Source: Bradyrhizobium sp. Ash2021
GTDB lineage: Bacteria > Pseudomonadota > Alphaproteobacteria > Rhizobiales > Xanthobacteraceae
Assembly (NCBI RefSeq): GCF_031202265.1
Contig: NZ_CP100604.1
Location: 3,888,501-3,952,500 of the forward strand
Length of the DNA: 64,000 nucleotides
Reading direction: 5' to 3'
In this document: positions 8,238 through 50,727 of the stretch, in pieces
Position numbering within the stretch: the stretch's first letter is position 1
Layout: the number at the start of each line of letters is the position of its first letter
Notes under the pieces: model-generated
The model's input: the letters and a program-made list of their open reading frames with translations, nothing else
Databases searched by the model: none
Told to the model about the DNA's origin: nothing
Translations under genes and position numbers: made by a program

Positions 8238-8426
8238 ATGGGCGAAATTATTCGATTTGTCCCAATGTCTGAGCGCGAGCGAGCCCGGCTAATTCGAGAG
8301 GCCCGCGCGATATACGACCGCATCTTCTCGCCGGCTGATCCAGTCAGCGAGAAGAAAAAGGCACCGGTAGGTCATGCGGTTAGCGGCGCCAATGCCCGTC
8401 GTAGCGACGGGGTTCTCCCGTCGTGA
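8238..8426 (+). CDS. Small hypothetical protein (MGEIIRF family)
   Basis: 62 residues starting MGEIIRFVPMSERERARL. The first 35 residues are a charged helix (RARLIREARAIYDRIF) that I recall as a very common small protein family in Bradyrhizobium. A start at 8223 would add five residues (MFGVN). The stop overlaps the GTG of the next gene. Function unknown. Confidence 0.6.
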   Translation: MGEIIRFVPMSERERARLIREARAIYDRIFSPADPVSEKKKAPVGHAVSGANARRSDGVLPS

Positions 8427-8632
8427 TCAAGATCATCGCCGTGCTCTGCAGTCTCTCCTCTCCGGCAAATTGCCACGAGCAGACCGTCACCACCTCGGAC
8501 TTCGCTGAGGTCTCAATGCAATCCTGCCTTATGGGCGCGCCGCAGCTCGCCGAGTGGATGAAGCAGCATCCGGTCGAGCGTCTGGCGGCATGGCGCTGCG
8601 TAATCGGCAAACAGGATGGCAAGGCTGTTTAG
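8423..8632 (+). CDS. Small hypothetical protein, probably secreted or periplasmic
   Basis: 69 residues from a GTG that overlaps the preceding stop (GTGA). The start MIKIIAVLCSLSSPANC is hydrophobic, followed by a conserved-looking body with three more cysteines (SMQSCLMG, AAWRCVIGK). I recall this as a recurrent small protein in Rhizobiales. The overlap suggests co-translation with the MGEIIRF protein. Function unknown. Confidence 0.55.
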   Translation: MIKIIAVLCSLSSPANCHEQTVTTSDFAEVSMQSCLMGAPQLAEWMKQHPVERLAAWRCVIGKQDGKAV

Positions 8633-8945
8633 GGTGGAAAGCGGTTTTCCTCGAGAGTTCGCCGCCGATCCCATCGGCGTCGCGCCGCACTTGCGGAGCT
8701 GTACCGCGGTCGTGGACGAGCCGACATTGCTCAATTTGCAGGAGCGATAGGCGGAGCCCTTAGCCCGCTACTTTATCTTCGTCGAAAGCGCGCCTGTGGT
8801 TCTTCTTGCTGGCAGGACTTGGAAGACGAACAGAGTCTGGCTTTGCGCACGGAACTGCGCAGTAACCGTCCAAATGGATCAGGAATGAACAAGATCGTCC
8901 AAAGCAGGTCAGCTACTCCATATAGCATCAAGAGGAGCAAGTTAC
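8633..8945. other. Intergenic region
   Basis: A 44-codon frame from an ATG at 8616 to 8750 exists but has no good start region, so I do not call it. The end of the region carries a strong ribosome binding site (AAGAGGAGC) for the gene at 8946. Confidence 0.3.
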
Positions 8946-9257
8946 ATGTCCAAACCTGCAATCGTTGCGACGACCTTGCTTGCTGTGTTTGGCGGCGGAC
9001 AACCCGTGTTTGCTGAGGAGGCAATATCTGAACCAAGGTGCGTATGCGGTCTATCAACCGGTGCCGACCTGTTGAGTGCGGGCCGCCCCATCTTCTCCGA
9101 CTCGGCCAATGCGTCTGCGAACGAACGCGATTCCAGGATCGATGGCCACGCTCGACCGCCGCAGACTTTGTCGCGACACCATCGCCGCTCCTCCGCTGCG
9201 GACGCGAGATCGACCGCTTACGTGGCTATCACGCGCGCGCGTACACCACGGATCTAA
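8946..9257 (+). CDS. Small secreted hypothetical protein, probably frame-damaged
   Basis: The N-terminus (MSKPAIVATTLLAVFGGGQP, then VFAEEA) is a classical Sec signal peptide with an AxA-type cleavage site, preceded by AAGAGGAG. Just after it the reading frame appears shifted and restored: in the +1 frame the stretch near 9037 reads EPGAYAVYQP, which fits the protein better than the in-frame EPRCVCGLST, and the original frame then resumes with GADLLSAGRP. This suggests two compensating indels. The C-terminal 50 residues are arginine- and serine-rich and may be out of frame. Function unknown. Confidence 0.45.
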   Translation: MSKPAIVATTLLAVFGGGQPVFAEEAISEPRCVCGLSTGADLLSAGRPIFSDSANASANERDSRIDGHARPPQTLSRHHRRSSAADARSTAYVAITRARTPRI

Positions 9258-9287
9258 CCAACATTCTCGCATGGGAGGAGCGTTTGG

Positions 9288-9413
9288 ATGACCGAATACC
9301 TAATCGCCGCGCGCGCTGTGGCCATCCTCTGGACTAGCCTTGCAGTGATGCCGGCCGAGATCGTCTTTGACGCGATTGAAGCCGAATTGAAGCGCGGTGG
9401 CATCGAACTGTAG
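9288..9413 (+). CDS. Tiny hypothetical protein (41 aa)
   Basis: MTEYLIAARAVAILWTSLAV followed by MPAEIVFDAIEAELKRGGIEL. The ATG has a strong ribosome binding site (GGGAGGAG, 8 bases upstream). The hydrophobic first half and acidic-helical second half are coherent, so I consider it a real small gene, but it has no known function. It sits immediately upstream of the decayed cyclase. Confidence 0.45.
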   Translation: MTEYLIAARAVAILWTSLAVMPAEIVFDAIEAELKRGGIEL

Positions 9414-9431
9414 CGTCAAGTCGTTGAGGTG

Positions 9432-9710
9432 ATGGCAGAGCGGGTCTCGTGAGCGGCGGCCGTATGCCGCGGCGATTGCCGGCGGTGCTGGCGGTTGATG
9501 TTGCCGGCTAGAGTCGCCTGATGGGCGCTGACGAGGTCGGCACTCTCGCCGCCATGAAAAACACTGCCGCGAAGTGGTCGATCCTGCCATTGCTGCTCAC
9601 AACGGCCGCATCGTCAAGACGACGGGCGACGGCATGCTGGTCGAATTCGCAAGTGCTGTCGATGCGGTGACCTGCGGTTGAGGTTCAGGGGAGAAAGGCA
9701 GCGCGAATGG
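9432..9710 (+). pseudogene. Remnant of a class III adenylate/guanylate cyclase gene
   Basis: Reading across frames recovers the N-terminal start of a nucleotidyl cyclase domain: RRLPAVLAVDVAGYSRLMG, then ADEVGTLAAMK, then HCREVVDPAIAAHNGRIV, then KTTGDGMLVEFASAVDAVT. The Tyr of AGYSRLMG is now a TAG stop, a frameshift follows the AAMK codons, and further damage follows VDAVT. The rest of the domain and the C-terminal part are absent. In rhizobia these genes are numerous and this one is clearly dead. The match to the cyclase family is from recognised motifs (AxDVAGYSRLM, GDGMLVEFxSA). Confidence 0.8.
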
Positions 9711-10008
9711 CCAGCGGAGGCGGGCCATGCATCTTGTTTCGCGTCGGGGTGACATCATCATGATGCTGCGTTCGGCGGCCGCGGCCGATCGTGGCGCGAA
9801 GCTGGCGTGTCGAGCTTGCAGTGAAAATTATGCGCCTTGGCTTCCGGCGAAATGCCTTGAGATTACTGCATCGATCTCAGCACTCTGTTGAACATATTTC
9901 ATCGCACATGCCTCTCGCTGAGGATTAACATCGTTGCGGGCGATCGGGCTGAATTGACTGGATTTAGAGTTTTCGTGCCGATCACATGCGACATGGCGAG
10001 GTTGAACT

Positions 10009-17100: not shown

Positions 17101-17325
17101 GCCTTCATTCTCGGTCTGGTGCCGCTGGTAGTGGCAACCGGCGCCGCTCAGATCAGCCGCCGCGCGGTAGGAACGGCCGTGTTCGGTGGTATGATCGCCG
17201 CAAGCTCGATCGGCATCTTCCTGGTGCCGATGCTTTATACGACGTTCCAGCGCCTCCGTGAGCGTCTGAAGGGGCGATTTGGTCGTCGGTCCGGCGTGAC
17301 GAACGCTCCGGTGCGTCATGGGTAA
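14173..17325 (+). CDS. RND multidrug efflux permease (HAE1 family, AcrB/MexF-like)
   Basis: About 1050 residues, full length for the family, starting [18 protein letters not shown]; a GTG at 14164 overlapping the adaptor stop is the alternative start. It has the two six-helix repeats with large periplasmic loops. The proton-relay aspartates lie in [14 protein letters not shown] (TM4) and the partner lysine in [18 protein letters not shown] (TM10). The substrate is not predictable, but AcrB-like pumps expel lipophilic drugs, solvents and aromatic compounds, which would suit the aromatic-degradation genes nearby. It is the second gene of an adaptor-pump-MarR operon with overlapping ends. Confidence 0.93.
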
Positions 17326-17848
17326 GAGGCATTATGGCGTCGCGGCGCTTCCGACAAATACCAATCAAGTTTATGGAGGGCGTTCCCGGAGATTGGAGTT
17401 CTTGCTTTACGGCGTTGCGCGCCTGCTGCGAAGGCAATTCGACTCGAAAGCACGCGGATTGCGCCTCAGCAGAACTCAGTGTCAGGCACTGCTCTATCTC
17501 CATCGAAACGAAGGCATCAATCAAACGTGCCTGGCTCAGCTCCTCGATGTGAAGGCGATCACTCTTGTGCGGCTGATCGACAAGATGCAAAGCATGGGAT
17601 TGATCGAACGACATACCGACCCATCCGATCGGCGAGTCTGGCGACTTAACTTGACGCCGGCTGCGCGGGCCAAGGTGGCGGAAGTCCGCGAATTGGGCGA
17701 TCTCACCCGCAGCGAAGCATTGGCGGGACTTGCGCCGGCAGAGATCGAGCTACTGGTCGAGACACTCCAGGTCGTAAGGGCCAACCTGTTGAACGCGTAC
17801 AATTCGTCTGCGATCGAAGGGGAGAGGGTGGGGCACACACGAGACTGA
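17318..17848 (+). CDS. MarR-family transcriptional regulator
   Basis: 176 residues from an ATG overlapping the last codons of the pump gene. The winged helix is plain: [19 protein letters not shown], then [25 protein letters not shown], then [20 protein letters not shown] with the DxRxxR wing signature. MarR proteins usually repress efflux or aromatic-catabolism genes and release DNA on binding phenolic ligands. Position at the end of the efflux operon suggests autoregulation of the pump, in addition to or in competition with the LysR protein. It is also a candidate for binding the palindromes at 18506 and 19260. Confidence 0.88.
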
Positions 17849-18017: not shown

Positions 18018-18299
18018 CTAATCGCGTTCAGAGAGTCCGGCAGACACAGCTGACTGCTTGCCCATCATGTCCGAAAGTAGCCGAGCCCATGAGCTTGCAA
18101 ACATCCTTTGCTCGTGAGCTACGATAGCCATGCGCTTTACCATCCATTCGCTGCAGAAGCTTACCGCTTCCGAGGGAGTTTTTGCGGCCATGATTCTGGA
18201 ACCGTAGTCCAGCTCGAGATCACGAATTTCCCTTAGCTTTTCGAGCCAGGCTCGATGCATGCCACGCATCTGTTCGAACAGATGAGCGTTGGAATTCAT
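18018..18299 (-). CDS. Small phasin-like protein
   Basis: 93 residues starting MNSNAHLFEQMRGMHRAWLE, with a ribosome binding site (AAGGGCG) before the ATG. The sequence is one long amphipathic helical run (LREIRDLELDYGSRIMAA, SEWMVKRMAIVAHEQRMFAS) of the phasin_2 type that coats polyhydroxyalkanoate granules or acts as a small stress protein. It is shorter than typical phasins (about 110-150 residues). The frame continues upstream to 18440, but that extension is not helical in the same way. It is transcribed against its neighbours. Confidence 0.6.
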   Translation of the reverse strand: MNSNAHLFEQMRGMHRAWLEKLREIRDLELDYGSRIMAAKTPSEAVSFCSEWMVKRMAIVAHEQRMFASSWARLLSDMMGKQSAVSAGLSERD

Positions 18300-18505
18300 C
18301 GTATGCGCCCTTTCTCCCTGGTCACATGCGTCCATGGAAGATATCCAATTCTTTTTGAGCGGGTCCGAGTGACGCCAAAAGCCAATCTCTGTCTTGGATC
18401 CTGACGAGACCTGGCGACAATACCCCTCAGCAACGGGCATGTGTGCTGAATTGTATTCAGCAGAATGCTGAGAAATATGGTGTTGGCCTCGATGTTACGA
18501 TTGCA

Positions 18506-18521
18506 CTTTACAATCGTAAAG
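18506..18521. promoter_or_regulatory. Palindromic operator upstream of the DoxX gene
   Basis: CTTTACAATCGTAAAG is a perfect 6+6 inverted repeat with a 4-base centre. A second overlapping dyad (TTACGATTG at 18495-18503 with CAATCGTAA at 18511-18519) shares its right arm. GATAAT directly follows the palindrome and could be the -10 box. The same palindrome recurs at 19260 and, with one mismatch, at 25904. Confidence 0.7.
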
Positions 18522-18609
18522 GATAATGTTAACGGAGGAATTGGTCGTCAGGCCGTCCCTTTCCGACCGCCGCTAAACGTCAACACAAGTGTCGCGAAAA
18601 GAGTCGAAC

Positions 18610-19029
18610 ATGGAAATTACAAGATTTCTGCCACTGCTTGGTCGCATACTTATCGGTCTGCCGTTTCTCGTGAGCGGCCTCGGCAAGCTCGCCGCCTTCG
18701 GACCGACGACAGCCTACATCAGCAGCGCGGGCTTGCCCGTGGCGCCGCTGGGCTGGGCAATTGCCGTTGCCTTCGAAGTTGGCGGTGGAGTGTTGTTGAT
18801 ACTTGGGTTTCGTGCGCGGGAGGTGGCGTCAGGCCTTGCGGTGTTCACCCTGGCAGCGGCGATCTTCTTTCACCACGACTTTGCTGACCGAAATCAGATG
18901 ATCCATTTTCTCAAGAACATCATGATTATCGGCGGTCTTTTGCAAATCGCGCATTTCGGCGCCGAACGCTACAGCCTTGACGCACGCAGAACGCGGGATA
19001 CCAAAAATATCGCCGGTGCGACCGCCTAG
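18610..19029 (+). CDS. DoxX-family membrane protein
   Basis: 139 residues with four predicted membrane helices (FLPLLGRILIGLPFLVSGLG; LGWAIAVAFEVGGGVLLILG; GLAVFTLAAAIFFHHDFA; NIMIIGGLLQIAHFG). The start matches the family pattern (RxLxGxxFLxSGxxKL). An upstream GTG at 18589 would add seven residues. DoxX-like proteins are small subunits linked to quinone oxidation or thiosulfate metabolism, and are also common as accessory genes in aromatic catabolic operons. It is preceded by the palindromic operator and heads the catabolic cluster. Confidence 0.85.
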   Translation: MEITRFLPLLGRILIGLPFLVSGLGKLAAFGPTTAYISSAGLPVAPLGWAIAVAFEVGGGVLLILGFRAREVASGLAVFTLAAAIFFHHDFADRNQMIHFLKNIMIIGGLLQIAHFGAERYSLDARRTRDTKNIAGATA

Positions 19030-19259
19030 AGCGCCGGACGTAAGCCGCTACCAGCGCAAGACAATTCTCACCATCGTGGGGCTCCTGGCCAAGCCGGGTG
19101 CCCTTTCAGCGCGTCATGACCGAGCGTGCGCTGACAAGTATTGAGAATGCTCGGGGGACGTGCAGTCGTCACGCTCCCGCGAACGCCTTCCTTATCCGAT
19201 GCAAAACGATTTCCAGGGCGGTCGGAGCGCTTCCTCACCGCGATATATCGAAAGTTATA

Positions 19260-19275
19260 CTTTACGAACGTAAAG
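19260..19275. promoter_or_regulatory. Palindromic operator upstream of the hydrolase gene
   Basis: CTTTACGAACGTAAAG is again a perfect 6+6 inverted repeat with a 4-base centre, 110 bp upstream of the chosen hydrolase start. GACAAT follows immediately at the position occupied by GATAAT at the DoxX site, consistent with one conserved promoter layout. Confidence 0.7.
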
Positions 19276-19385
19276 GACAATGGTATCTTCCAATCCGCGC
19301 GGCGCGGACGACGATCAGTCGATGCCGCGCTCGCTATTCCGAAATGCCGGCGGTCAGCGTCGCGAAAATGGGCGGAGACGAAGCG

Positions 19386-21131
19386 ATGATCGAGGAGCGA
19401 GACATCAGTGTCGCCATGCGAGATGGCACGCGGTTGGCGGTAGACGTCTATCGACCGGATAAGTCGGGCAAGTATCCCGTACTTTATGCGTCGGCCCTGC
19501 ATAACAAGGACATTCAAGGCCCAGACATCGCGGACATATTGCCGCCGCAACCGGCCCACGCACCGCTCTGGTTCGGTCCCATAGAGGCGGGCGACACGCG
19601 GCGTTTTATCGCCAACGGCTATGTTCATGTGATCGCGCAGCCGAGGGGCTCGGCCAAGTCGGAGGGGCATTACGGCAACGAGGACACAGACCACTACGAC
19701 CTGATCGAATGGATCACCCAGCAACCTTGGTCAGACGGCAAGGTCGGGATGGTCGGCATCTCCGGATTTGCCGGAGAACAATGGCGCGCGGCCGCGCAGG
19801 GACATCCGGCCCTGAAAGCTATCTTCCCGTACGACGCGTGCAGCGCCTATGGCGGCATGTTCGGATTCCGCGATTTCAATCCCGGCGGCCTCCTTCATTC
19901 CTTCCCCTATTTGCTCGACGTCTTCAGCACGGTTCATGAGTCGCGTGACCGGCCCGCGGAACTTCCCGCCGCGGAGGAAGACCTTTGGCGCCGGGCGATG
20001 CGGAATCCGGACTATAAGCAGTACATCAACCTCTACAACATTCTCACTCAAAAGGGGCAGCGGACGTTCATCATGTATCTCATGATGACACATCCCTGGG
20101 AGTTCGACGGCACTGTCGAGCGCGCGGAAGAGACCTTCAAGAAAATCAAAATACCATTCTATACCGGTTCAGGAGCTTACGCCTACACTTACAAGCTCCA
20201 TTGGCTCGGCGCACAGCACTACTTTCAGAATGTCGATGCGCCAAAGAAGCTGTTGTTTACGGGCCCGGCTCATCTGGAGCGGCCATTTCATCAATACCAC
20301 GACGAGATCATCCGGTGGTATGACCATTGGCTGAAGGGGCAGAACACCGGCATCATGGACGAACCGCCGGTGCGCTACTGGCTCATGGGTGCCAACGAGT
20401 GGCGAACCGGAATGGATTGGCCACTGCCCGAGACACGATGGACAAAATACTATCTGTCGCATTGGGAGACTCTGTCGACCGAGCCCCTACGACCCGCCTC
20501 CGAGCTCGGAGCGGCCGCGCGCGAGCCCGACGTCTTCACGCAAATGCCGGTGACCCGAACGACGAAGGTCGAGCGGCTGCGCTATATGACCGATCCCTTG
20601 CCGCACGACGTCACCGTCGCCGGCCCGATCACGCTGACGCTGTTTGCGGCAATCGATCAGGAAGACACCAACTGGATTGTCGTGCTCAAGGATGTGGGAC
20701 CCGACGTCTCGGTTCGTACCGCGCGCGAAGGTGAACGCGATGTTCCGTCGACGCTGCCCGAACGCGAGCTGACGCGGGGCTGGCTGAAAGCGTCTTATCG
20801 GGCTCTCGATGAGAAGCGCTCCAAGCCCTGGGAGCCGTTCCACAAGCTCACGCAGGATTCGATTGCTCCGGTGAAGCCGGGAGAAGTGGTCGAGTACCGG
20901 ATACAGATCCTCGCTACGGCAAACCAATTTAAGGCGGGGCACCGGATTTGCCTCGATGTCACATCCATGGATGTTCCGACCGGCACCGGCGCGATGACCA
21001 ATGTCGAGTACATTCCATACCACGTTTGCAGCAGCAGGACCGTGACCCACAGGATCTATCGGGATGCAGAGCGGCCATCGCATCTGCTGCTGCCCATCAT
21101 CCCTGAACCCCGCGATCAGCGTCCGGCCTGA
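19386..21131 (+). CDS. CocE/NonD-family hydrolase (X-Pro dipeptidyl-peptidase S15-like)
   Basis: 581 residues from the ATG at 19386, which has GGAG nearby and begins with the family N-terminus (MIEERDISVAMRDGTRLAVD). The upstream extension of the frame to 19098 runs across the operator and is not coding. The alpha/beta-hydrolase core has AQPRGSAKSEG (oxyanion region) and the nucleophile elbow GISGFAGEQW. The C-terminal jelly-roll domain of the PepX type begins near residue 390. Such enzymes hydrolyse esters or amides of acyl compounds. In this cluster it may release an aromatic or acyl acid for the ligase that follows. The substrate is inference only. Confidence 0.82.
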   Translation: MIEERDISVAMRDGTRLAVDVYRPDKSGKYPVLYASALHNKDIQGPDIADILPPQPAHAPLWFGPIEAGDTRRFIANGYVHVIAQPRGSAKSEGHYGNEDTDHYDLIEWITQQPWSDGKVGMVGISGFAGEQWRAAAQGHPALKAIFPYDACSAYGGMFGFRDFNPGGLLHSFPYLLDVFSTVHESRDRPAELPAAEEDLWRRAMRNPDYKQYINLYNILTQKGQRTFIMYLMMTHPWEFDGTVERAEETFKKIKIPFYTGSGAYAYTYKLHWLGAQHYFQNVDAPKKLLFTGPAHLERPFHQYHDEIIRWYDHWLKGQNTGIMDEPPVRYWLMGANEWRTGMDWPLPETRWTKYYLSHWETLSTEPLRPASELGAAAREPDVFTQMPVTRTTKVERLRYMTDPLPHDVTVAGPITLTLFAAIDQEDTNWIVVLKDVGPDVSVRTAREGERDVPSTLPERELTRGWLKASYRALDEKRSKPWEPFHKLTQDSIAPVKPGEVVEYRIQILATANQFKAGHRICLDVTSMDVPTGTGAMTNVEYIPYHVCSSRTVTHRIYRDAERPSHLLLPIIPEPRDQRPA

Positions 21132-21153
21132 CGCCGGCCAAAGGAGAAGTGCT

Positions 21154-21942
21154 ATGACGACGATCCGATTTGAACGAGACGGCGCGATTGGCAATATCGT
21201 GCTGGCCAACCCGCCTTTTAACCGACTGGATCTGCGCTTTGCGGAGGCTTTGCGGGTAGCCGTACGCCAGGCCGGTGAAAGCGACATACGTGTGCTGGTG
21301 GTTCGCTCCGAAGGGCCGCATTTCAGCTTCGGCGGCGAAGTCCGGGAATGGCCGGGAAGGGATGTCAATTGGTTCCGGACGTTCGTTGCCGACGTGAACG
21401 TGTCCTATCGCGCCATCGAGATGCTGAAAATACCCACCGTAGCGGTAGTGCAGGGGATCGCCTTCGGTGGCGGTTTCGAGCTGGCGCTGGCCTGCGATTT
21501 TCTTGTTGCGGCCGACAACGCCACCTTCCGTTGCGTGGAAGTCACGACTGCTATGCTGCCGATCGCCGGCGCTCTCCAGCGAATCGCCGAGCGCGCCGGT
21601 CGTGCCCGGGCATCACGATTTGCCATGCTGGGCGAGCCCATTTCCGGACGCGAGGCCGGTGCACTTGGAATTGCCACGCATGTAGTTCCCGAGAATGAGC
21701 TTGGGGCAGCCGCCGCCGCATTGGCGAAGCAGCTCGCGACAGGGCCGACCAGGTCGTACGCCGCGACGCGCACGCTACTCAAGGCGTGGTCAAGCGGAGG
21801 CGTGGCCGCTGCGGATCTCGTGATGCTCGACGTGGCGATGGAACTCTACGACGGCCCTGATGCGCAGCGCGGCTTTGCCAACACGGCGGATGCGTTCAAC
21901 AGGGATATCGAGCCGCCGACCCTTGTGTTCGAAGGGAAGTAG
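21154..21942 (+). CDS. Enoyl-CoA hydratase/isomerase-family protein
   Basis: 262 residues with an excellent ribosome binding site (AAGGAGAAG). The crotonase core is clear: oxyanion region HFSFGGEVREWPGR, then GIAFGGGFELALACDFLVAA carrying the first catalytic-type Glu, then FRCVEVTTAMLPIAGALQRI with the second Glu. Crotonase enzymes hydrate, isomerise or cleave CoA thioesters. Between a hydrolase and an acyl-CoA ligase, it probably acts on the CoA ester made by the ligase. Substrate unknown. It lies 22 bp after the hydrolase gene. Confidence 0.85.
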   Translation: MTTIRFERDGAIGNIVLANPPFNRLDLRFAEALRVAVRQAGESDIRVLVVRSEGPHFSFGGEVREWPGRDVNWFRTFVADVNVSYRAIEMLKIPTVAVVQGIAFGGGFELALACDFLVAADNATFRCVEVTTAMLPIAGALQRIAERAGRARASRFAMLGEPISGREAGALGIATHVVPENELGAAAAALAKQLATGPTRSYAATRTLLKAWSSGGVAAADLVMLDVAMELYDGPDAQRGFANTADAFNRDIEPPTLVFEGK

Positions 21943-21993
21943 ATCGACCGCGAAAGGACTCTGGCTCCAGATCCGAAGGTATCGGAGGTATTC

Positions 21994-23706
21994 GTGCTAC
22001 GTGAAAGCTATGTGCATGGTAACAGCGGCCCACCACTGATCGGGAAGACCATCGGCGCTCTCCTGGATGAGGTGAGTGCGACTGACGGGGGGCGTGAAGC
22101 GCTGGTCGTTGCGCACCAGAAAATTCGCTGGACCTACTCCGAACTTAAATCACGCTCCGACGCTTTCGCCTCGGGGCTTCTGTCCCTCGGCCTTGAGCCA
22201 GGCGATCGCGTCGGCATCTGGGCCCCGAACTGCGCGGAATGGACGGTCGCGCAGTTTGCGACGGCGAAGGCTGGTCTGATTCTGGTCAACATCAATCCCG
22301 CCTATCGCCTGAGCGAGTTGGAGCACGTGCTGCGCGCGGTGGGATGTCGAGCGTTGATAACTGCGGCTCGCTTCAAGACCAGCGACTATATTGCAATGAT
22401 TCGCGAGCTTGTCCCTGAGCTGGGAAACGGAAGCAGTGAGCTGAAAAGTTCGCGTTTGCCAGAGCTGCGGCACGTTGTCTCGATTGGCAGCGGCAGCTAC
22501 GCCGGCTGCCTGGCCTTTGATCGGGTCCTGGACCGAGGGAAGCAACTCGGTAGCCAGCGGCTGAGTTCGGTGGCGGCTGCTATCCAGATGGACGACGCCG
22601 TGAATATCCAGTTCACCAGCGGCACCACGGGATTGCCGAAGGGCGCAACACTTTCGCATCACAATCTGATCAACAATGCGTTCTTCGTAGGAGAAGCGAC
22701 GGGAATCGAGCCCGGCTCGCGCGTGTGCATTCCCGTGCCGCTATACCACTGCTTTGGCATGGTAATGGGCAATCTCGGTTGTGTGACCCATGCGGCAACG
22801 ATGGTCTACCCGTCGGAGTCCTTCGATTCGCTGAAAACCCTGGAAACGGTCGAAGCAGAACGTTGTGACGTGCTCTACGGGGTACCCACAATGTTCATTG
22901 CTCAACTGAACCATCCTGAGTTCTCTCGCTTCAATCTCAGTTCGCTTCGGCGCGGCATTATGGCTGGGGCTCCGTGCCCGATCGAAGTCATGAAGGAAGT
23001 CGCTTCGACAATGCACATGAGCGAGATAACGATTGCCTACGGGATGACGGAAACCAGCCCGGTGAGCTTTCAGAGCCGCCGTGACGATTCGCTGGAGCTC
23101 CGTGTTTCGACAGTCGGACGGATACAGCCGCATCTTGAAGTCAAGATAGTCGACCGCGACGGTCGGGTGGTGCCGCGCGGCGAAGCCGGGGAGCTGTGCA
23201 CCAGGGGATATTCGGTCATGCTCGGCTATTGGAATGACGAGGTCCGAACAAGGGAAGCCATCGATTCAGCCGGCTGGATGCATACCGGAGACCTGGCGAC
23301 CATCGATGACAATGGATATTGCCGTATTGTCGGCAGGATCAAGGATATGGTTATCCGCGGCGGAGAAAACATCTATCCGCGTGAAGTCGAAGAGTATCTG
23401 TACGGTCATCCCGATATTCAAGACGTCCAGGTTTTCGGGGTGCCCGACACGAAATACGGCGAAGAACTGTGCGCCTGGATCGTCTCTAAGGCCGGCGCCG
23501 CTGTCGACGAGGAGGGGGTCCGCAGGTTCTGTCAGGACCGGATCTCTCACTACAAGATTCCGCGCTACATTCGCTTCGTCGAGAGTTTTCCATCAACCGT
23601 AACCGGCAAGATTCAGAAGTTTGCAATGCGCGAGGCGATGATCGAGGAATTCGCCCGCGCAGAACGGGGACATGACATTCCGGGCAAGCGACATGGAGGC
23701 GTTTGA
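21994..23706 (+). CDS. AMP-dependent acyl-CoA synthetase/ligase
   Basis: 570 residues from a GTG. The AMP-binding signature is [18 protein letters not shown] at about residue 207, the adenylate motif is YGMTETSP, the hinge is [20 protein letters not shown], and the C-terminal catalytic Lys lies in [13 protein letters not shown]. It activates a carboxylic acid as AMP then CoA ester; the fold is that of medium-chain fatty-acyl and aryl-CoA ligases. It is co-directional with the crotonase gene, 51 bp downstream, and its last codons overlap the maleylacetate reductase remnant. The true substrate is unknown. Confidence 0.88.
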
Positions 23707-23922
23707 ATATTCGGCGCTGCCAGCGCGTGTCATTTTCGGGTTCGGAACACTCGCGCGCGTTACCGACGAGCTGATCGCTCTGGGTCGCAAACGGGCCTTC
23801 GTTCGTTCCGATCCACATCACGCACCGCCGGCGCAACGCGGCTTTGGAATCCGCGCCCAATCGAGCGGGATCCGATCCGAGCCCTTCTCGACGACGCCTA
23901 TCACGGCCGCCGGCCGTCTTAA
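23693..23922 (+). pseudogene. Maleylacetate reductase with internal deletion
   Basis: The N-terminus is a good match to maleylacetate reductase ([20 protein letters not shown], then ARVTDELIALGRKRAF). After about 43 codons the reading jumps to the C-terminal end of the same family, seen in another frame as WNPRPIERDPIRALLDDAYH followed by GRRPS and a TAA at 23920. About 280 residues, including the whole NAD-binding and metal-binding core, are missing and the join is out of frame. Maleylacetate reductase normally follows intradiol cleavage of hydroxyquinol and converts maleylacetate to 3-oxoadipate. Loss of it here leaves the intact dioxygenase without its usual partner. Confidence 0.85.
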
Positions 23923-23934
23923 GCAGGAGCGCAA

Positions 23935-24864
23935 ATGATGGTCATGATCGGCAACCAGAAGGGTGTTCCAACAGAGGAAGTCTTTCCAGAACTGACCCGC
24001 GACGTCATTGACCGCATGAGCAACGCGAAGAGCGCCAGATTGCAGGAGGTCATGGAGGTCGTCATCCGCCATTTGCATGCGATCGTCAGAGAATCGAAGA
24101 TAACGCAAGGCGAGTGGTGGCAAGCCATCGACTTTCTCACCCGTGCGGGCCAGATGTGTTCCGAAAGCCGCCAGGAGCTTATTCTGCTCTCGGACATTCT
24201 TGGCATCTCCATGCTCGTTGACGCGGTCGACAATGTAGCCGGTCCAGGCATCAGTGACTCGACAGTCCTCGGTCCGTTCTATGCCGGGCATCAGCGTGAA
24301 CTCGCGCTAGGCGACAGTATCCTGCTTCGGGAGGAGGCGAGCGAGCCGTTAGTGATGAGCGGCAATGTCACTGACCCCGAGGGGCAGCCCGTTGCGAACG
24401 CATTGATAGAGGTTTGGCAAACTGCTCCAAATCAACTGTATGACGTTCAGGACACAGATCAACCACAGGGTCACCTGAGGGCGAGCTTCCGGACCGATAT
24501 GGCAGGTACCTATCGATTCCAAACGATCATGCCTGTCAGTTATCCAATTCCAGATGACGGTCCCGCGGGTCAGTTGCTCGCGGCAATGGGACGACATCCC
24601 TTCCGACCCGCGCACATTCATTTCATGATCAGCGCACCGGGCTATCGCACCCTCGTCACTCATCTATTCTTCGAAGGCGATGAATTTCTGGAGAGCGATG
24701 CGGTTTTTGGGGTTAAGCCGTCGCTCGTTGTTCGTCCCGAGGTGAAAGAGGCTACCAACACCGTCGAATATAACTTCGGACTTGCCAGAGAGCTGCGCAC
24801 AGAAGAGTCAAGGTCGCCGAGCTTCGTCGCGGGCAACAAAGGGATCAGGTCTTCCGAATTCTAG
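23935..24864 (+). CDS. Intradiol ring-cleavage dioxygenase (hydroxyquinol 1,2-dioxygenase type)
   Basis: 309 residues with AGGAG 6 bases before the ATG. The helical N-terminal dioxygenase domain (residues 15-100) is followed by the beta core with the four Fe(III) ligands in place: Tyr169 (LYDVQD), Tyr203 (VSYPIPDDGP), His227 and His229 (RPAHIHF). Enzymes of this family cleave catechols or hydroxyquinol between the hydroxyls; adjacency to a maleylacetate reductase favours hydroxyquinol. The product would be maleylacetate. All catalytic residues are intact although its partner is a pseudogene. Two further ATGs lie at 23938 and 23944. Confidence 0.9.
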   Translation: MMVMIGNQKGVPTEEVFPELTRDVIDRMSNAKSARLQEVMEVVIRHLHAIVRESKITQGEWWQAIDFLTRAGQMCSESRQELILLSDILGISMLVDAVDNVAGPGISDSTVLGPFYAGHQRELALGDSILLREEASEPLVMSGNVTDPEGQPVANALIEVWQTAPNQLYDVQDTDQPQGHLRASFRTDMAGTYRFQTIMPVSYPIPDDGPAGQLLAAMGRHPFRPAHIHFMISAPGYRTLVTHLFFEGDEFLESDAVFGVKPSLVVRPEVKEATNTVEYNFGLARELRTEESRSPSFVAGNKGIRSSEF

Positions 24865-24963
24865 GATGAGCGACACTGTTGCCGTACCGAGAGGATTGCA
24901 CGGGCGGAGTACGATGAAGCAGTATCGGAAGATGAGGTTGGTCGCAGTGGTCGTTAGTGCATG

Positions 24964-24981
24964 ACGCCCCTTGGCGTTTTT
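24964..24981 (+). terminator. Rho-independent terminator before the TetR gene
   Basis: ACGCC-CCTT-GGCGT followed by TTTT, 100 bp after the dioxygenase stop. It separates the catabolic genes from the TetR gene, which therefore probably has its own promoter or depends on read-through. Confidence 0.6.
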
Positions 24982-25000
24982 CCTGCAATCGTGTTAGCCA

Positions 25001-25717
25001 ATGAACATGGCGAAGAGCGCAAAGCTGAAATCGACCGTGGAGCGGCGGGTGCGTCCGCGCAAGAGAGCCGAACAACAACGCTCGCTTGAGACGCGAGGCG
25101 CGATCCTGGACGCGGCCATCACGGAGTTCGCCGAACGAGGATTCGAAGGCGCGAGCATTCGAGCGATTGCAGATCGGCTTGGTCTGCAACATCCTCTCAT
25201 CACATACCATTACCGAAGCAAAGACATTCTCTGGCGAGCGGCGGCTGAACATGCGTTCGAGCAGATCAGGGCAGGGTGGGATACGTCGGCGCCAGAAAAC
25301 TCCGATTTGGCTCCGCTTGCCCGATTGCGGGAGGAGTATGCTACGCTTTTCCGCTACACCGTCGCATTTCCCGAGTTTCACCGGTTCATGCGGCAGGAGG
25401 CCTTTACCAACAATCCGCGGCTGAAGTGGGTTGCGGAAACGGTATTGGCGCCGCTCCTTGGACGATTGATCCCCCAGATTGTTGCGGCCCAAAAAAAAGG
25501 ACTTCTTCCTGCGGTTGATCCCATCCTCTTCCACTACATGATGGTTAGTCTTACGGCGACGCTCTCCGGATTCGGGCCTGAAATGCAGGCTACGAGCGGA
25601 CTATCCGCTGAAAATGCGAAGGTCATCGAGGCGTACTGGCGCCTTGTGGACGAAACAGTCTTTGGAAAATATGCGCGCGGGAAGCCTGCCCGGGTCAACG
25701 AAGCAAGTAAGCGGTAG
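25001..25717 (+). CDS. TetR-family transcriptional regulator
   Basis: 238 residues from the ATG at 25001 (a second at 25007). The basic leader is followed by the TetR HTH: RGAILDAAITEFAERGFEGA, then SIRAIADRLGLQHPLITYHY, then RSKDILWRAA. The C-terminal ligand domain is helical. It sits at the end of the catabolic cluster and is the best candidate to bind the 16-bp palindromes at 18506, 19260 and 25904, which have the size and symmetry of TetR operators. No palindrome is seen directly upstream of its own start. The ligand would be expected to be a pathway intermediate. Confidence 0.88.
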   Translation: MNMAKSAKLKSTVERRVRPRKRAEQQRSLETRGAILDAAITEFAERGFEGASIRAIADRLGLQHPLITYHYRSKDILWRAAAEHAFEQIRAGWDTSAPENSDLAPLARLREEYATLFRYTVAFPEFHRFMRQEAFTNNPRLKWVAETVLAPLLGRLIPQIVAAQKKGLLPAVDPILFHYMMVSLTATLSGFGPEMQATSGLSAENAKVIEAYWRLVDETVFGKYARGKPARVNEASKR

Positions 25718-25764
25718 GCGCAGGCAGAATTAGGTCCACTTGGAAATAGGCCGCAGCCAACGAG

Positions 25765-25790
25765 GCGGCCAGACCAGAAGTCCTGGCCGC
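25765..25790 (+). terminator. Hairpin after the TetR gene
   Basis: GCGGCCAG and CTGGCCGC form a perfect 8-bp stem around a 10-base loop, 48 bp after the TetR stop. There is no T-run, so its strength as a terminator is uncertain. Confidence 0.35.
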
Positions 25791-25903
25791 TTCGACGGAT
25801 TCCCTCAATTGAACGGATGATGGCGGCGACCGCCCGGCGCGCAACCGCCTGGGCGTGCGTTGCCTCACTCCGGATTCCAGCCTCATTTTTCTCTTGAAAT
25901 AAA

Positions 25904-25919
25904 CTTTACAGACGTATAG
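25904..25919. promoter_or_regulatory. Third copy of the palindromic operator, now orphaned
   Basis: CTTTACAGACGTATAG differs from a perfect palindrome by one base (TATAG for TAAAG). TTGAAA lies at 25894 and TATAAT at 25920, so it sits inside a plausible promoter. No intact gene follows; the next 650 bp hold only debris. It looks like the promoter of a lost member of the same regulon. Confidence 0.6.
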
Positions 25920-25925
25920 TATAAT

Positions 25926-26279
25926 AACGTGGTGCTAAAGACAAGCTGAAATGCCACGGCTTTGAGTTCGATGCTTCCGTTCGAAAAGTCGTAATGCGCT
26001 GACCAAGGCCCCGGGAGGAGGCAGTCGCCGTTCGCATGTCGCGTCATGCTGGGTCCGTCCGTCGACGTATTTGGCTGGCATCGAATCGTGCGGCCATGCC
26101 GTCGCCGGCCTGACCAGTTGCTCTAGGCGCATCGGCCAAGTGTTCCCGCGGATAAGCCGCAAACCGCTCGGCAACATCGCCTGGTCCGTGATTGCGGTTA
26201 ACAGCAAGGGGTCCGAGAGCAATGCCTGGTTCGCTTCGACTTTGCATATGCCGCGCGGACGGATGCCGCAAAGCTACGG
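25926..26279. other. Region without a supported gene
   Basis: Downstream of the orphan promoter I find only short frames with no family resemblance. This may be what is left of a deleted operon. Confidence 0.3.
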
Positions 26280-26910: not shown

Positions 26911-27844
26911 GAGTCTGTCCGGGATCATGCTGTTTTTTGACAGAGCTTTCTGAGCATGAGGCGGATTGAGGCAAGGCGCAAGAACGCCAAGGCCTTTCGG
27001 TTGAGGCACTCCCAATCCTTGGCCAAGCGGCGGCAGCGATTGAGCCAGGCGATGGTGCGCTCGACGATCCATCGCTTGGGCAAGACCGCAAAGCCCTTTG
27101 CTGTATCGGAACGCTTGACGATTTCCACGTCGATTTGCCGGAGGATTTTGCGAACGGCGGACTGAAAGATCGGCCCCTGGTAGCCGCCGTCGGCATAGAG
27201 CTTCAGCAGGAATGGATGCAGGCCAAACAGAGTGGCCATCACCAACACCCCGCCGTCTCGATCCTGGATGTCCGCCGAATGTACAAGGGCGTGGAGCAAT
27301 AAGCCCTGGGTATCGACTAGGATGTGGCGCTTCTTGCCCTTGATCTTCTTTCCCGCATCGTAGCCATGCGGGTCAATCCACGCCCCCCTTTTTCCGCGCT
27401 CTTGACGCTTTGACTGTCGATGATGGCGGCGCTCGGGCTGGGTTCTCGGTTGGCCAACTCCCGACATTGTACATAGAGCGCGTGATGGATGCGATCGAGC
27501 GTGCCGTCCCAAGTCCACAAGTCAAAATAACCGTGCACCGTGCTGCGCGGCGGCAGATCCTTCGGGATCGCTCGCCATTGGCAACCGCTGCTCAGCACAT
27601 ACATCAGACCATTGACCACTTCACGCACATCCACCGTGCGCTTGTTGCCGCCTCGCTTGGCTGACGCAATCAGCGGCTCCACAAACGCCCATTCCTCATC
27701 GGTCAAATCGCTGGGATAGCGTAGCCGGCTGCGGTCGTAACGACCGCGGTTCTCTTTCGTCCACATCGGCGCTCCTTCAGATTCGGACCGCCTCCCTTGA
27801 ATCACAAATGATTCCGATGATTCAACATGTTTTCGGACAGACAC
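26911..27844 (-). mobile_element. IS5-family (IS427-type) insertion sequence, complete
   Basis: Ends are readable: GAGTCTGTCCGGGATCATG at the left and, reversed, GTGTCTGTCCGAAAACATG at the right. Both sides are flanked by TAA (26908-26910 and 27845-27847), a 3-bp target duplication. The element is 934 bp and encodes a two-frame transposase on the minus strand. It is related to, but not identical with, the element at 63106. Confidence 0.9.
26925..27766 (-). CDS. IS5-family transposase, two frames joined by a -1 frameshift
   Basis: OrfA runs from the ATG at 27766 (MWTKENRGRYDRSRLRYPSD) through the HTH-like N-terminus to SQSVKSAEKGG. OrfB continues in the -1 frame (AWIDPHGYDAGKKIKGKKRH) to LRKLCQKTA, stop at 26925. 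The slip site, read on the minus strand near 27390, is five A followed by six G. A -1 slip restores the full DDE enzyme: catalytic Asp in IDSQSVKSAE, then YADGGYQGP, and Glu in RWIVERTIAWLNRCRRLAKD. This is the known expression strategy of IS427-group elements. Confidence 0.85.
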
Positions 27845-27929
27845 TAAGGCGCTCTTGTCCGATAAAACGCTCTCCTCGATCCTCATGTAATTGTTGTTGC
27901 ACCTTCAGATGATGAACAGAAAATCGTAT

Positions 27930-44728: not shown

Positions 44729-45685
44729 ATGTCGTCTAGTTTGCGTCTCTCGATCATTTTAGTGTTTTTGCTCGCAACCACTGCGCTCGGGCTTATCGCC
44801 TACAACATGAACGTGTCGAAAGCACAGGTCCCGGTACAGGTCACGGAGAAGGCGTCGGCGCCTCTCACTCGGTACCTTGTCGCGGCACGTCCGTTGAAGG
44901 CGGGTACATTGACACGCGACGAAGATTTCCGTTCCGAGCCGTTGGATAGTGTTCCAGCGGGGGCGATACGTGATACGACCGAGGATAGGAACAAACTTCT
45001 CGGTTCCCTGGTTCGCAAGAACCTCGACACTGGCAGTCTTATCACATCAGAAAACGTATTGCTCCGAGGAGATCGGGGTTTCCTCGCCAGCGTCTTGGAA
45101 CCGGGTACCCGTGCCATCAGCATCAAGGTTGATGCAGAATCTGGTGTCTCGGGCCTGATCAAGCCGGGTGACTATGTGGATGTCGTGTTGACCCAAGTGG
45201 TCGCGAACGCAGATGTCGCGCGTCGGGCCCTCAGCGAAACCCTTCTCCAAAATGTTCGAATCATCGCGATTGACCAGGAGATTGTGCAAGGCGGCGGAGC
45301 CAATAACACCACGGCCGCGAAGGTAGCGCAAACCGTGTCACTGCAGCTTGCGCCAGAGCAGGTCAAGAAGATTGCGGTCGCAAAAAATCTCGGATCGCTT
45401 TCCTTGGCCATGCGGTCAGCGGTCGAGCTACGGGATACAGCGGACAGTCGCACTATTTCCAGTTGCGATGTATCGCCGGAAATAGCCCGCCAGAATGCCA
45501 TTGCCGGCCAGAGCGCAGCGGTGGTGGTTTATGGAGGCGGTAAGGTTCAGGAATACTCAGTCAGGAAACAAGATTCAACCTTCGGTTGTGGCGTTTTGCC
45601 GAAAATTGCCCGCGAGAGCGAAACGGTGGTGGTCCATGCGGCTGATGAGGTTGAGGCCGTAAAGCCGCTGGAGAAACGGCGATGA
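44729..45685 (+). CDS. cpaB: Flp pilus assembly protein CpaB/RcpC
   Basis: 318 residues, one N-terminal membrane helix (LSIILVFLLATTALGLIAYN) and a periplasmic SAF domain (LTRYLVAARPLKAGTLTRDE, then LLGSLVRKNLDTGSLIT), followed by the RcpC/CpaB beta domain (GLIKPGDYVDVVLTQ). The protein is thought to act in the periplasm with the secretin. It begins 1 bp after cpaA and its stop overlaps the start of cpaE (ATGA). Confidence 0.92.
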   Translation: MSSSLRLSIILVFLLATTALGLIAYNMNVSKAQVPVQVTEKASAPLTRYLVAARPLKAGTLTRDEDFRSEPLDSVPAGAIRDTTEDRNKLLGSLVRKNLDTGSLITSENVLLRGDRGFLASVLEPGTRAISIKVDAESGVSGLIKPGDYVDVVLTQVVANADVARRALSETLLQNVRIIAIDQEIVQGGGANNTTAAKVAQTVSLQLAPEQVKKIAVAKNLGSLSLAMRSAVELRDTADSRTISSCDVSPEIARQNAIAGQSAAVVVYGGGKVQEYSVRKQDSTFGCGVLPKIARESETVVVHAADEVEAVKPLEKRR

Positions 45686-46881
45686 GCATTAACATGGCAA
45701 TAGTCAGTCCGACCGAAGAAGCTGCGTCTCTTGTAACGCGCAACCGAATCGTTTGTTTCGTAAATGACGAGCTCAGTGCAGCAGCGCTGCGAAAAGGCCT
45801 CGAAGGTAGCAACTTGTCAATCAGACGTGGCACGATCAGTCATGCCATACGGATGCTCGAGACCGACACCGAGCTATTTGCGTTGGTGGCAGACATCAGT
45901 GGACTCGATGATCCATTTACCGAACTGGAAAGGTTGTCCGCCGTCTGCCCTCCCGATGTTCTGGTGGCGCTGATCGGTGAGAGCCGGGAGATCACTTTCT
46001 ACCGCGAGCTGATGGAAATCGGCTTGACCGAGTACCTTCCGAGGCCGCTCACGCGCGATATGGTGCTGCATCAGTTGCGCCCGAAGCTGCTTGGCGACGT
46101 GAGACCCGGTGCGGCCGATCGGGGCGGGCATGTGATCTCGATCTGCGGCGCGCAGGGGGGCGCCGGAGCAACGAGTATCGCTATCAATCTCGCACTGCAA
46201 CTGGCCGAGACCACAAAGGCCAAGGTCGCGCTGCTCGACCTTCATTTGCAAAACGGCGAAACGGCAGTGATGCTGGGTGTTCGGCCCGGGCCGGGGCTGC
46301 GGATCGCTCTGGAAAACCCGATGCGGGCGGACACCTTGTTTCTCGAACGCGCGGCAATTGATATCAACGAGCGGGTTTGCTTGATTTCCGCCGATGAGGA
46401 TCTGGATGCGCAGCTGGACATCACTGAAGCCGGAGTGAGACACGTGCTGGGTCTGCTCCGTCAACGGTTCAACTACATCGTTGTCGACATACCGGTGCCG
46501 TTTCCGCCATCCATCCATCCCGTGATCACACTTTCGCGCCACGTACTGGTGCTGCTGGAGGCGGAAGTGACCGGACTTCGCAACGCCCATGCACTCCGCA
46601 ATGCCGTCACCAACATTGCCGGTAAGGATCGGGTCTTCACTTTGCTCAATCGTGCCAATCGTGCCGGCGGCCTTCCCCGGGCCACGATCGTCAAGGCCTT
46701 GGGCGCAGAACCCGACATGGTGATTCCCGATCTCGGCAAGGGGATGACCCAAGCGGTCAATCTCGGAATTCCAGCTTTAAAGCACGTATCAAAACTGCGT
46801 CGTTACCTCGCCCCGATTGTGCGGGAGATCGCCGGTATCGGCGCCCAGCGGAAGGGATGGTTCAGGAGGCTGTTCCGGTGA
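45682..46881 (+). CDS. cpaE: Flp pilus localisation ATPase CpaE/TadZ
   Basis: 399 residues. The N-terminal half is a receiver-like domain without the usual phosphoacceptor (VADISGLDDPFTELERLSAV). The C-terminal half is a MinD/ParA-type ATPase with a deviant Walker A loop, GAQGGAGATSIAINLAL, lacking the usual lysine before T, as in other TadZ/CpaE proteins, and a Walker B region in YIVVDIPVPFP. It places the pilus machine at the cell pole. Overlaps cpaB and cpaF. Confidence 0.9.
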   Translation: MSINMAIVSPTEEAASLVTRNRIVCFVNDELSAAALRKGLEGSNLSIRRGTISHAIRMLETDTELFALVADISGLDDPFTELERLSAVCPPDVLVALIGESREITFYRELMEIGLTEYLPRPLTRDMVLHQLRPKLLGDVRPGAADRGGHVISICGAQGGAGATSIAINLALQLAETTKAKVALLDLHLQNGETAVMLGVRPGPGLRIALENPMRADTLFLERAAIDINERVCLISADEDLDAQLDITEAGVRHVLGLLRQRFNYIVVDIPVPFPPSIHPVITLSRHVLVLLEAEVTGLRNAHALRNAVTNIAGKDRVFTLLNRANRAGGLPRATIVKALGAEPDMVIPDLGKGMTQAVNLGIPALKHVSKLRRYLAPIVREIAGIGAQRKGWFRRLFR

Positions 46882-48353
46882 CGAAAAAATTTGGTACGCG
46901 CGAACGCGATGGCACACCAACCCGTTTTCCTGAATCGACGCCAAGGGATGGCGGGCCAACTGGTTTGCTTGAATTGATGCCAAGCGACGACGGTTTGACC
47001 GCGCAGCCGGTGATGCCAGGCGAACCTTCGACCGAGCAGCCCGTGATGCCGGCTTCGCTGCGCGAACAAATCGTGATGCCATCTTCGCTGCGCGCGCGCG
47101 TCGAGATGCCAGCATCACTGCGCGAACGGGTCATTGAGCAGATTGAGCCATCGGTGGCGGCAACTGTTTCGCGCGATGTGCTCCGGCGGCAGATCGAGGA
47201 AATCATCCATGGCATCGCCAACCAGGACCGACTCGAATTGTCAGGTCGCGAGCAGTTTCAGCTAGCAGACGAGATAGCGGACGACATGACCGGCTATGGG
47301 CCGCTCCGTCCGCTCCTGATGGATCAGTCGATTAACGATATCATGGTCAACGGACCAAGTAACGTCTATGTCGAGCGCAACGGCAAGCTGGAACGAATCG
47401 CGATAAGATTCCGCGACAATGCTCACATCGCATCGGTGGCGCAGAAGATTGCGGCGCAGGTTGGACGGCGCGTTGACGAATCAAGTCCGATGGTGGATTG
47501 CCGCCTGCCGGATGGCAGCCGGGTCAACATCATCTTTCCGCCGCTGGCGATCCATAGCCCCTGCATTTCCATCCGAAAATTTCCAAGTCGCCGTTTGGAT
47601 ATGGCCGGTATGATCCAAAACGGCTCACTGACTTCGGCCATGGGAAAATTGCTGGAGATTGCTGCCCGGTCTCGCCTCAATGTTCTGGTCTCTGGCGGTA
47701 CTGGTTCAGGCAAGACGACGCTGTTGAACGCTATGAGCCAATTCATTGATCACAGTGAACGCGTTGTCACCATCGAGGATGCGGCAGAGTTGCAGCTCCA
47801 ACAACCGCACGTGATCAGCTTGGAAACCCGGCCTCCTAGCCTCGAAGGCACGGGGCAGGTGACACAACGTGATCTGGTGTGGAATGCCCTGCGCATGCGT
47901 CCTGACCGGATCGTCGTAGGCGAGGTGCGCGGCCCTGAAGCATTTGATATGCTGCAAGCGATGAACACAGGTCATGATGGTTCGATCTCCACGGTGCATG
48001 CCAACTCAGCCCGCGACGCACTGACTCGAATTGAAAACATGGTTCAGATGGGGCAGCCAAATCTGCCGCTACGGGCGATTCGGTCTCAGATCGTCGCTGC
48101 GTTGGACATCATCGTGCAAGTAGAACGCATGCGGGATGGACAGCGTCGCGTCATCCAGATTAGCGAGGTGATCGGCCTGGAAGGCGATGTGATCACCACC
48201 AATGACATCGCGGCGTTCGAGTACGAAGAGGAGGATGTTCACGGGCGGATATCGGGTACCTATAGGTCCACCCAAGCAATCCCGAAATTCAAGAGCCGTC
48301 TTACCTATTTTGGGCTTGATCGAGCCTGGGTTGACGCCATGAGGCAGCTATGA
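46878..48353 (+). CDS. cpaF: Flp pilus secretion ATPase CpaF/TadA
   Basis: 491 residues from the GTG at 46878, which shares bases with the cpaE stop and has AGGAGG 8 bases upstream; an ATG at 46857 adds seven residues but lacks such a site. Walker A is [12 protein letters not shown] (about 272-283), followed by the Asp box and Walker B ([20 protein letters not shown]) and His box ([12 protein letters not shown]). It is a type II/IV secretion hexamer that powers pilus extension. The N-terminal 85 residues are not like other CpaF proteins and contain three tandem 10-residue repeats (xxMPASLRExx). Confidence 0.93.
47043..47132 (+). repeat. Three tandem 30-bp repeats inside cpaF
   Basis: Units at 47043-47072, 47073-47102 and 47103-47132 encode [20 protein letters not shown] and [11 protein letters not shown] degenerate [11 protein letters not shown] unit lies just before. 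The unit is codon-aligned, so changes in copy number keep the frame. Confidence 0.8.
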
Positions 48354-49282
48354 TGGCGGAGCCTTTGATTATCATTGTCCTGGTGCTCGTCCTATGCGCA
48401 GCGGCCGAGACGTTATGGCTCGACGCACGACACAGGCGCTTCGATCGTCAACTAGCGATCGCTCTACCAACCTCAGACCCTGCGAGGCTGCCCTCCATTC
48501 GTCGGTTACAAGCCGGGTCCCGGTGGCGGTTTTTCCACCGCTTTGCCAATTTCAGTCCCGAGATGGCTTACGACTGGCACCCCGCGTATGTGCTGCTTGC
48601 CGGTGCCATCGCAGCAGTGGCAGTCTTTTATGCTAATAGCCTACTGGGATTTTCCACCTTCTACGTGTCCCTCGCGGCTGCAATTGTCGACATCATGGTG
48701 GTGCGAGGTCTGTTTGGATGGCAGCGCCGTCGCCTCGCCAATCAACTGTTTCGACAGCTACCTGACACGATCCAGCTGGTGACAAGTACCGTTCGATCCG
48801 GGCTGCCTGTGAACGAAGCATTTCGCACTATCGCGCGCGAGATGCCCGAGCCAACTGCTGGGCAGTTTGCCATCGTATGTAACGAAGTAAGGTTGGGGAG
48901 ACCTCCAGAGGAAGCTATCGAGGATGTCTATTGGCGAACGCAGGTGGCAGAGTATGGAATCTTTGCGATGACGCTGGCAGTCCAGTTGAAGTCGGGTGGC
49001 AGTTTGAGCGAAACCTTGCAGACACTGGGAGACACTGTGAGTCAGCGTGTTGCGCTAGCTGCGCGCGCGAAGGCTTTGGCAGGAGAGGTGATCTTTTCCT
49101 CACGAGCGCTTGCAATCTCACCCTTGGTTGTTGGAGCGATACTATACTGGGTCAATCCGCAATCAATTGATCTACTGTTCACGGATCCGACTGGAAACAT
49201 GCTCCTGGCCTACGCGGTCACCTCGGTGGTTATGGGGCACCTGGTTATAAGCTGGATGATCAGAAGGGAAACAAAACTATGA
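48350..49282 (+). CDS. tadB: Flp pilus inner-membrane platform protein TadB
   Basis: 310 residues with a start overlapping the cpaF stop. It has an N-terminal helix, two central helices (AYVLLAGAIAAVAVFYANSL; FSTFYVSLAAAIVDIMVVRG), the T2SF domain (QLPDTIQLVTSTVRSGLPVN; FAMTLAVQLKSGGSLSETLQ) and two C-terminal helices. With TadC it forms the GspF-like platform on which the CpaF ATPase acts. The end overlaps tadC by four bases. Confidence 0.92.
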   Translation: MMAEPLIIIVLVLVLCAAAETLWLDARHRRFDRQLAIALPTSDPARLPSIRRLQAGSRWRFFHRFANFSPEMAYDWHPAYVLLAGAIAAVAVFYANSLLGFSTFYVSLAAAIVDIMVVRGLFGWQRRRLANQLFRQLPDTIQLVTSTVRSGLPVNEAFRTIAREMPEPTAGQFAIVCNEVRLGRPPEEAIEDVYWRTQVAEYGIFAMTLAVQLKSGGSLSETLQTLGDTVSQRVALAARAKALAGEVIFSSRALAISPLVVGAILYWVNPQSIDLLFTDPTGNMLLAYAVTSVVMGHLVISWMIRRETKL

Positions 49283-50717: not shown

Positions 50718-50727
50718 GAGATTTCCA

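Follow-up and report, generated by a model that had tools for sequence, protein, structure and literature searches.

A palindrome that recurs at three promoters of a catabolic cluster in Bradyrhizobium sp. Ash2021 is very probably the operator bound by the product of the TetR-family gene at 25001-25717; judging from comparative sequence evidence, this protein would act as an autoregulated repressor on the core promoters and would be released by a ligand of the pathway. The sites, their rarity, their placement at promoters and their co-occurrence with the TetR gene were observed directly, and binding, repression, an inducer and co-transcription are what we infer from them. All positions refer to the window, that is, the whole stretch of 64,000 nucleotides that was analyzed. 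A previous sequence-only reading had proposed that the same inverted repeat at 18506, 19260 and 25904 defines a small local regulon with three promoters; all three copies are present at those positions, and their rarity together with their promoter placement upholds the proposal. The sites and genes concerned are the following:

17318 to 17848, plus strand: MarR-family gene (PF01047), a disfavored candidate for the binder, linked to the site in 2 of 19 loci
18506 to 18521, plus strand: proposed operator 1, CTTTACAATCGTAAAG, before the DoxX gene, with GATAAT next to it (18522-18527); the same copy occurs in genome G241 (locus L084, 8469)
18610 to 19029, plus strand: DoxX family gene (PF07681, 64.2 bits)
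19260 to 19275, plus strand: proposed operator 2, CTTTACGAACGTAAAG, which precedes the CocE operon and is kept in 19 of 19 Bradyrhizobium loci
19261 to 19289, plus strand: proposed core promoter of the CocE operon, from conservation over 19 aligned sites and hexamer scoring, with putative function
19386 to 21131 (the start could be 19344), plus strand: CocE/NonD family hydrolase gene, here CocE (PF02129, PF08530; TIGR00976 above cut-off)
21154 to 21942, plus strand: enoyl-CoA hydratase/isomerase family gene, ECH (PF00378)
21994 to 23706, plus strand: acyl-CoA ligase family gene, ACS (PF00501, PF13193; NF009233 above cut-off)
23693 to 23938, plus strand: iron-containing dehydrogenase gene fragment, a 56% match to L086 13123-13335, which is part of an Fe-ADH open frame of 360 aa
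23935 to 24864, plus strand: intradiol dioxygenase gene, hydroxyquinol 1,2-dioxygenase-like, HQD (PF00775, PF04444)
25001 to 25717, plus strand: TetR-family regulator gene, the proposed binder (PF00440, 47.3 bits with a cut-off of 24), which co-occurs with the site
25904 to 25919, plus strand: proposed operator 3, CTTTACAGACGTATAG, with one mismatch; counterparts at L084 15860 and L086 16158

Further along the window, Flp/Tad pilus assembly genes (RcpC/CpaB, T2SSE, T2SSF and TadE/G-like) were found at 44729-50184 and 50662-52086.

The 9.7-Mb genome has just two exact matches to CTTTAC-N4-GTAAAG, at 18506 and 19260, and both belong to the catabolic cluster; the copy at 25904 deviates from this pattern by one mismatch. 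When one mismatch was allowed, 11 places were found, three of them in the cluster, and a reversed-pattern control gave 15 in the whole genome, so the other eight are at chance level. Moreover, the pattern CTTTACNNNCGTAWAG with up to two mismatches gave nine strand-wise matches in the window versus 0.89 expected, a number reached by none of 100 shuffles; this enrichment is partly circular because the pattern was built from these very sites. The pattern CTTTACNNNCGTAAAGNAYAAT, which comprises the palindrome and the -10-like letters that follow it, matched with at most one mismatch only the three cluster places genome-wide, and its control matched none.

The comparison within the genus was based on 242 genomes, including the own genome, drawn from a larger group. 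Full-length orthologues of the TetR protein (79-100% identity) were present in 19 of them, and the next relatives had 35% identity, besides fragments in two of the 19 genomes. Orthologues of the CocE hydrolase (at least 91% identity) were found in the identical set of 19. The exact palindrome was present in 17 of these 19 genomes versus one of the 223 others, G020 (Fisher p = 5.8e-23, for genomes that are related and hence not independent); the remaining two, G027 and G173, carry one-mismatch copies before CocE. The 21 exact places comprised 17 before CocE, two before DoxX (window and G241) and two outside the cluster, namely that of G020 and the second copy of G028, which falls within an open frame. 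The genome scan for CTTTAC-N4-GTAAAG that the earlier reading had suggested thus found the pattern not frequent away from promoters, either in the own genome or in the 242-genome set. The reversed control palindrome occurred in 31 of the 242 genomes, four of them among the 19, and is therefore not concentrated in genomes with the TetR orthologue.

Furthermore, 20-kb stretches of 18 relatives were compared with the window, which gave 19 loci. In all of them the palindrome lies directly before CocE, ECH follows CocE, and the TetR gene is located downstream in the same orientation. In G055 (L105, 9985), CTTTACCTTCGTAAAA followed by TATAAT precedes the gene of a methyl-accepting chemotaxis receptor, at a distance of 40-50 kb from that genome's CocE cluster; this site may be either chance or a regulon member, and it is, like the second exact copy of G028, probably chance. 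Pieces of a second CocE gene with 66-73% identity lie elsewhere in the own genome (G000:C1:1824141-1824784, L106), and no palindrome with up to two mismatches was found in the 18-kb stretch around them.

The joint occurrence of site and TetR gene extends to Burkholderiales and to metagenome-assembled genomes (MAGs) of other groups. A scan with the TetR alignment yielded 36 loci, six of which were removed as repeats, and 49 distinct loci were considered overall. CocE with at least 75% identity was present in 44 of the 49, other genera included, and a site within 300 bp before CocE was found in 38 of the 44 with at most one mismatch and in 41 with at most two. In total, 20 permuted palindromes with up to one mismatch gave two sites before CocE and 13 elsewhere. 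Elsewhere in the 0.92 Mb, 14 further sites with at most one mismatch, which include window operators 1 and 3 and their counterparts, and 36 further sites with at most two were found. The loci outside the one-mismatch class were L134, L156 and L159 (two mismatches), L155 (three), L135 and L138. Accordingly, L135, L138 and L155 (3 of 44) had no site with up to two mismatches in the scored 300 bp before CocE; L135 and L138 have one-mismatch copies beyond the scored stretch, that of L138 about 1 kb upstream. The sites of the Cupriavidus type are degenerate, with two to three mismatches (L155, L156 and L159). In Burkholderiales loci L139-L151, at about 8330-9825, degenerate sites of the TTTTCC-N4-GTAYAG type with one to three mismatches lie near porin, ECH and TetR genes and are perhaps further operators of the same regulator. 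In the TetR protein, conservation of residues 32-78 exceeded that of residues 79-225 by 1 to 32 points in all 28 non-Bradyrhizobium proteins compared (L161 left out), the narrowest gap being that of L135 (68 versus 67%). These data suggest that the palindrome is very probably a site of the local TetR protein, because site and TetR gene travel together through many bacteria. Since the TetR and CocE genes are themselves linked, co-occurrence alone leaves room for another linked factor or a host factor.

Site alignment and hexamer scoring placed the palindrome over, or exactly within, the core promoter. At the hydrolase promoter, an element TGnnATnnT that is conserved in the 19 relatives starts 21 bp into the site (window 19281-19289); in the alignment of the 19 CocE sites, T, G, A and T at offsets 21, 22, 25 and 26 reached 1.7-2.0 bits and T at offset 29 reached 1.3 bits. 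This element fits a predicted extended -10 (TGGTATCTT, with TATCTT as -10), separated by a 17-bp spacer from the putative -35 TTTACG (19261-19266), which belongs to the left arm of the palindrome. A -10-like hexamer (GATAAT, GACAAT or TATAAT) had previously been noted directly after each copy. These hexamers are present and plausible as -10 elements for DoxX and site 3, but as the -10 of the hydrolase the conserved TGnnATnnT fits better, and GACAAT (19276-19281) is probably not the -10 of that promoter.

At site 3, TTGAAA (25894-25899) and TATAAT (25920-25925) are separated by 20 bp, and the spacer of the counterpart is 19 bp in G241 and G028. Where the DoxX orthologue is divergent, in six loci (L085, L086, L088, L089, L093 and L096), TATAAT abuts the other arm of the palindrome, so that one operator would serve two promoters. 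An ATTATA-like flank is conserved also in loci where no divergent DoxX orthologue was found, so the operator may include this flank. Collinear DoxX genes, each with an operator copy to itself, occur in the window and in G241. In Paraburkholderia, the site takes up exactly the 17-bp spacer from TTGCAT to TATAGT. Adjoining operator 1 on the minus strand, a 140-aa open frame (18018-18440) is 86% conserved in G241; it had no Pfam or NCBIfam match.

The TetR and MarR proteins had both been named as candidate binders from the sequence. Binding by the MarR protein would tie the neighboring RND efflux pump to the catabolic genes, and in both the window and G241 its gene precedes operator 1 by about 650 bp. 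However, among the 20-kb neighborhoods of the 18 relatives with the site, the MarR gene was present only in that of G241, which gives 2 of 19 loci with the window versus 19 of 19 for the TetR gene; the MarR protein was set aside on this linkage as a most improbable binder, and the TetR protein is strongly favored. Another reading, that a regulator encoded elsewhere in the genome, such as one of the MerR family, binds the palindrome, is very improbable. MerR-type sites lie between the -35 and -10 elements, and the palindrome of LiuR is similar; in the present case, the palindrome also lies between -35-like and -10-like elements, and the spacing at site 3 is long (19-20 bp). On the other hand, the MerR model PF13411 matched five genes in the genome and none in the window, and a MerR-type regulator was rejected with no such gene linked to the site. 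Besides the single exact palindrome among the 223 genomes with no TetR orthologue, no site with up to two mismatches was found in the 20 kb by three CocE relatives (70-84% identity) that have no linked TetR gene (G226, G241 C4 and the second copy of G178); a fourth such relative, in G196, lies on a 3.1-kb contig and is uninformative.

The TetR protein might also bind the palindrome as an activator instead of a repressor. The -35 elements are weak (TTTACG and TTGATT), as is often the case in activated promoters, but the overlap of the site with the core promoter, which extends in Paraburkholderia to filling the whole TTGCAT-TATAGT spacer, suits a repressor and makes activation improbable. In the TetR family generally, a site over the core promoter suits repression. 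Two features of an autoregulated TetR repressor were found here, namely a TetR_N domain and, in 19 of 19 loci, the palindrome at the promoter of the unit to which the TetR gene belongs, a single transcript being assumed. The predicted structure of the protein (AlphaFold) had a mean pLDDT of 54. Under repression by TetR, a dimer would occupy the core promoters of DoxX and of the CocE-ECH-ACS-HQD-TetR operon and block RNA polymerase, and the protein would repress itself through the CocE operon, which ends in its own gene and is presumably co-transcribed. The repressor would leave the operator when an aromatic substrate or a CoA intermediate of the pathway binds, and a FAD monooxygenase unit would formerly have been under the same TetR protein through site 3.

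The gene behind site 3 had been described as lost, which proved right, since 17 bases of a FAD monooxygenase gene are left. The features behind site 3 are as follows:

26222 to 26238, plus strand: FAD monooxygenase gene, reduced to a remnant with the start codon and about five codons; homology to L084 ends at 26238
26925 to 27886, minus strand: transposase of the IS5 family, located behind the break in two frames that overlap (NF033580; PF01609, PF13340)

Homology in the transposase stretch starts near 26937 in the window. Both G241 and G028 have the counterpart of site 3 before a FAD monooxygenase gene. In G028 this gene has an open frame of 398 codons, with an MFS transporter gene behind it, and in G241 the end of the gene is lost at sequence common to the IS5-type transposase stretch of the window. 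In G031, G216 and G027, the monooxygenase and transporter genes lie between the ligase and TetR genes with no extra site; in G192, they are inverted behind the TetR gene and no site was detected there. The nearest solved chains of the monooxygenase were tropone 2-monooxygenase and decarboxylative hydroxylases, and the protein was below the curated cut-off of all 25 NCBIfam families listed.

The nearest solved chains of HQD were PnpC (3n9t) and hydroxyquinol dioxygenases (8r2x and 1tmx), and the hydroxyquinol 1,2-dioxygenases among them suggest a hydroxyquinol route. Only four of the 19 Bradyrhizobium loci were found to have HQD (window, L084, L086 in two frames, and L092). The reductase fragment at 23693-23938 is, in our reading, that of a maleylacetate reductase. 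The window combines an intact HQD with this reductase fragment; L086 has the 360-aa Fe-ADH frame open and HQD split over two frames. With the monooxygenase gone and the reductase fragmentary, the pathway copy of the window looks partly decayed, its operators persisting. A literature search for the cluster, the operator or a CocE-linked hydroxyquinol route returned nothing relevant, which is weak evidence of absence as most subscription journals lay outside its scope.

The CocE hydrolase is about 80% identical between classes, and the scattered hosts suggest horizontal spread, with the reservation that MAG assignments may be wrong. The TetR protein, the palindrome and CocE-ECH might together be a self-contained cassette that has spread horizontally (Bradyrhizobium, Burkholderiales, Pseudonocardia and MAGs of other groups) and serves an undescribed route of aromatic breakdown with CocE as its hallmark enzyme, a reading to which we give slightly less than even confidence. 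A promoter motif seen by eye has become a testable regulator-operator pair across several bacterial groups, and the palindrome marks which genes form one catabolic unit. In addition, the loci show operator copies appearing where the operon was split into separate units. Knowing what induces the TetR protein would reveal the substrate of the uncharacterized pathway, and the pair could be used as a biosensor.

Compared with known hydroxyquinol clusters, the present loci share HQD (in 4 of 19), a reductase of the Fe-ADH family (in L086) and a 3-oxoacid CoA-transferase subunit gene (in L137), but their core genes are the CocE hydrolase and ECH, which together with TetR occur in 19 of 19 loci. RutR and ScbR were the best NCBIfam hits of the TetR protein, and RutR was also among its nearest solved chains; with 46.3 of 368 and 48.9 of 150 bits, respectively, the scores are far below the curated cut-offs, and the protein is therefore a member of neither. 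RolR is the TetR-family local repressor of the resorcinol cluster of Corynebacterium. With RolR and other catabolic repressors of the TetR family, the present system shares TetR_N (PF00440), a regulator gene at the operon end, a palindrome over the promoter and nearby ring cleavage of the hydroxyquinol type; the operator sequence of RolR is a different one, and the likeness is drawn from these features. The predicted operator would be ordinary in kind, and it is well supported by co-occurrence.
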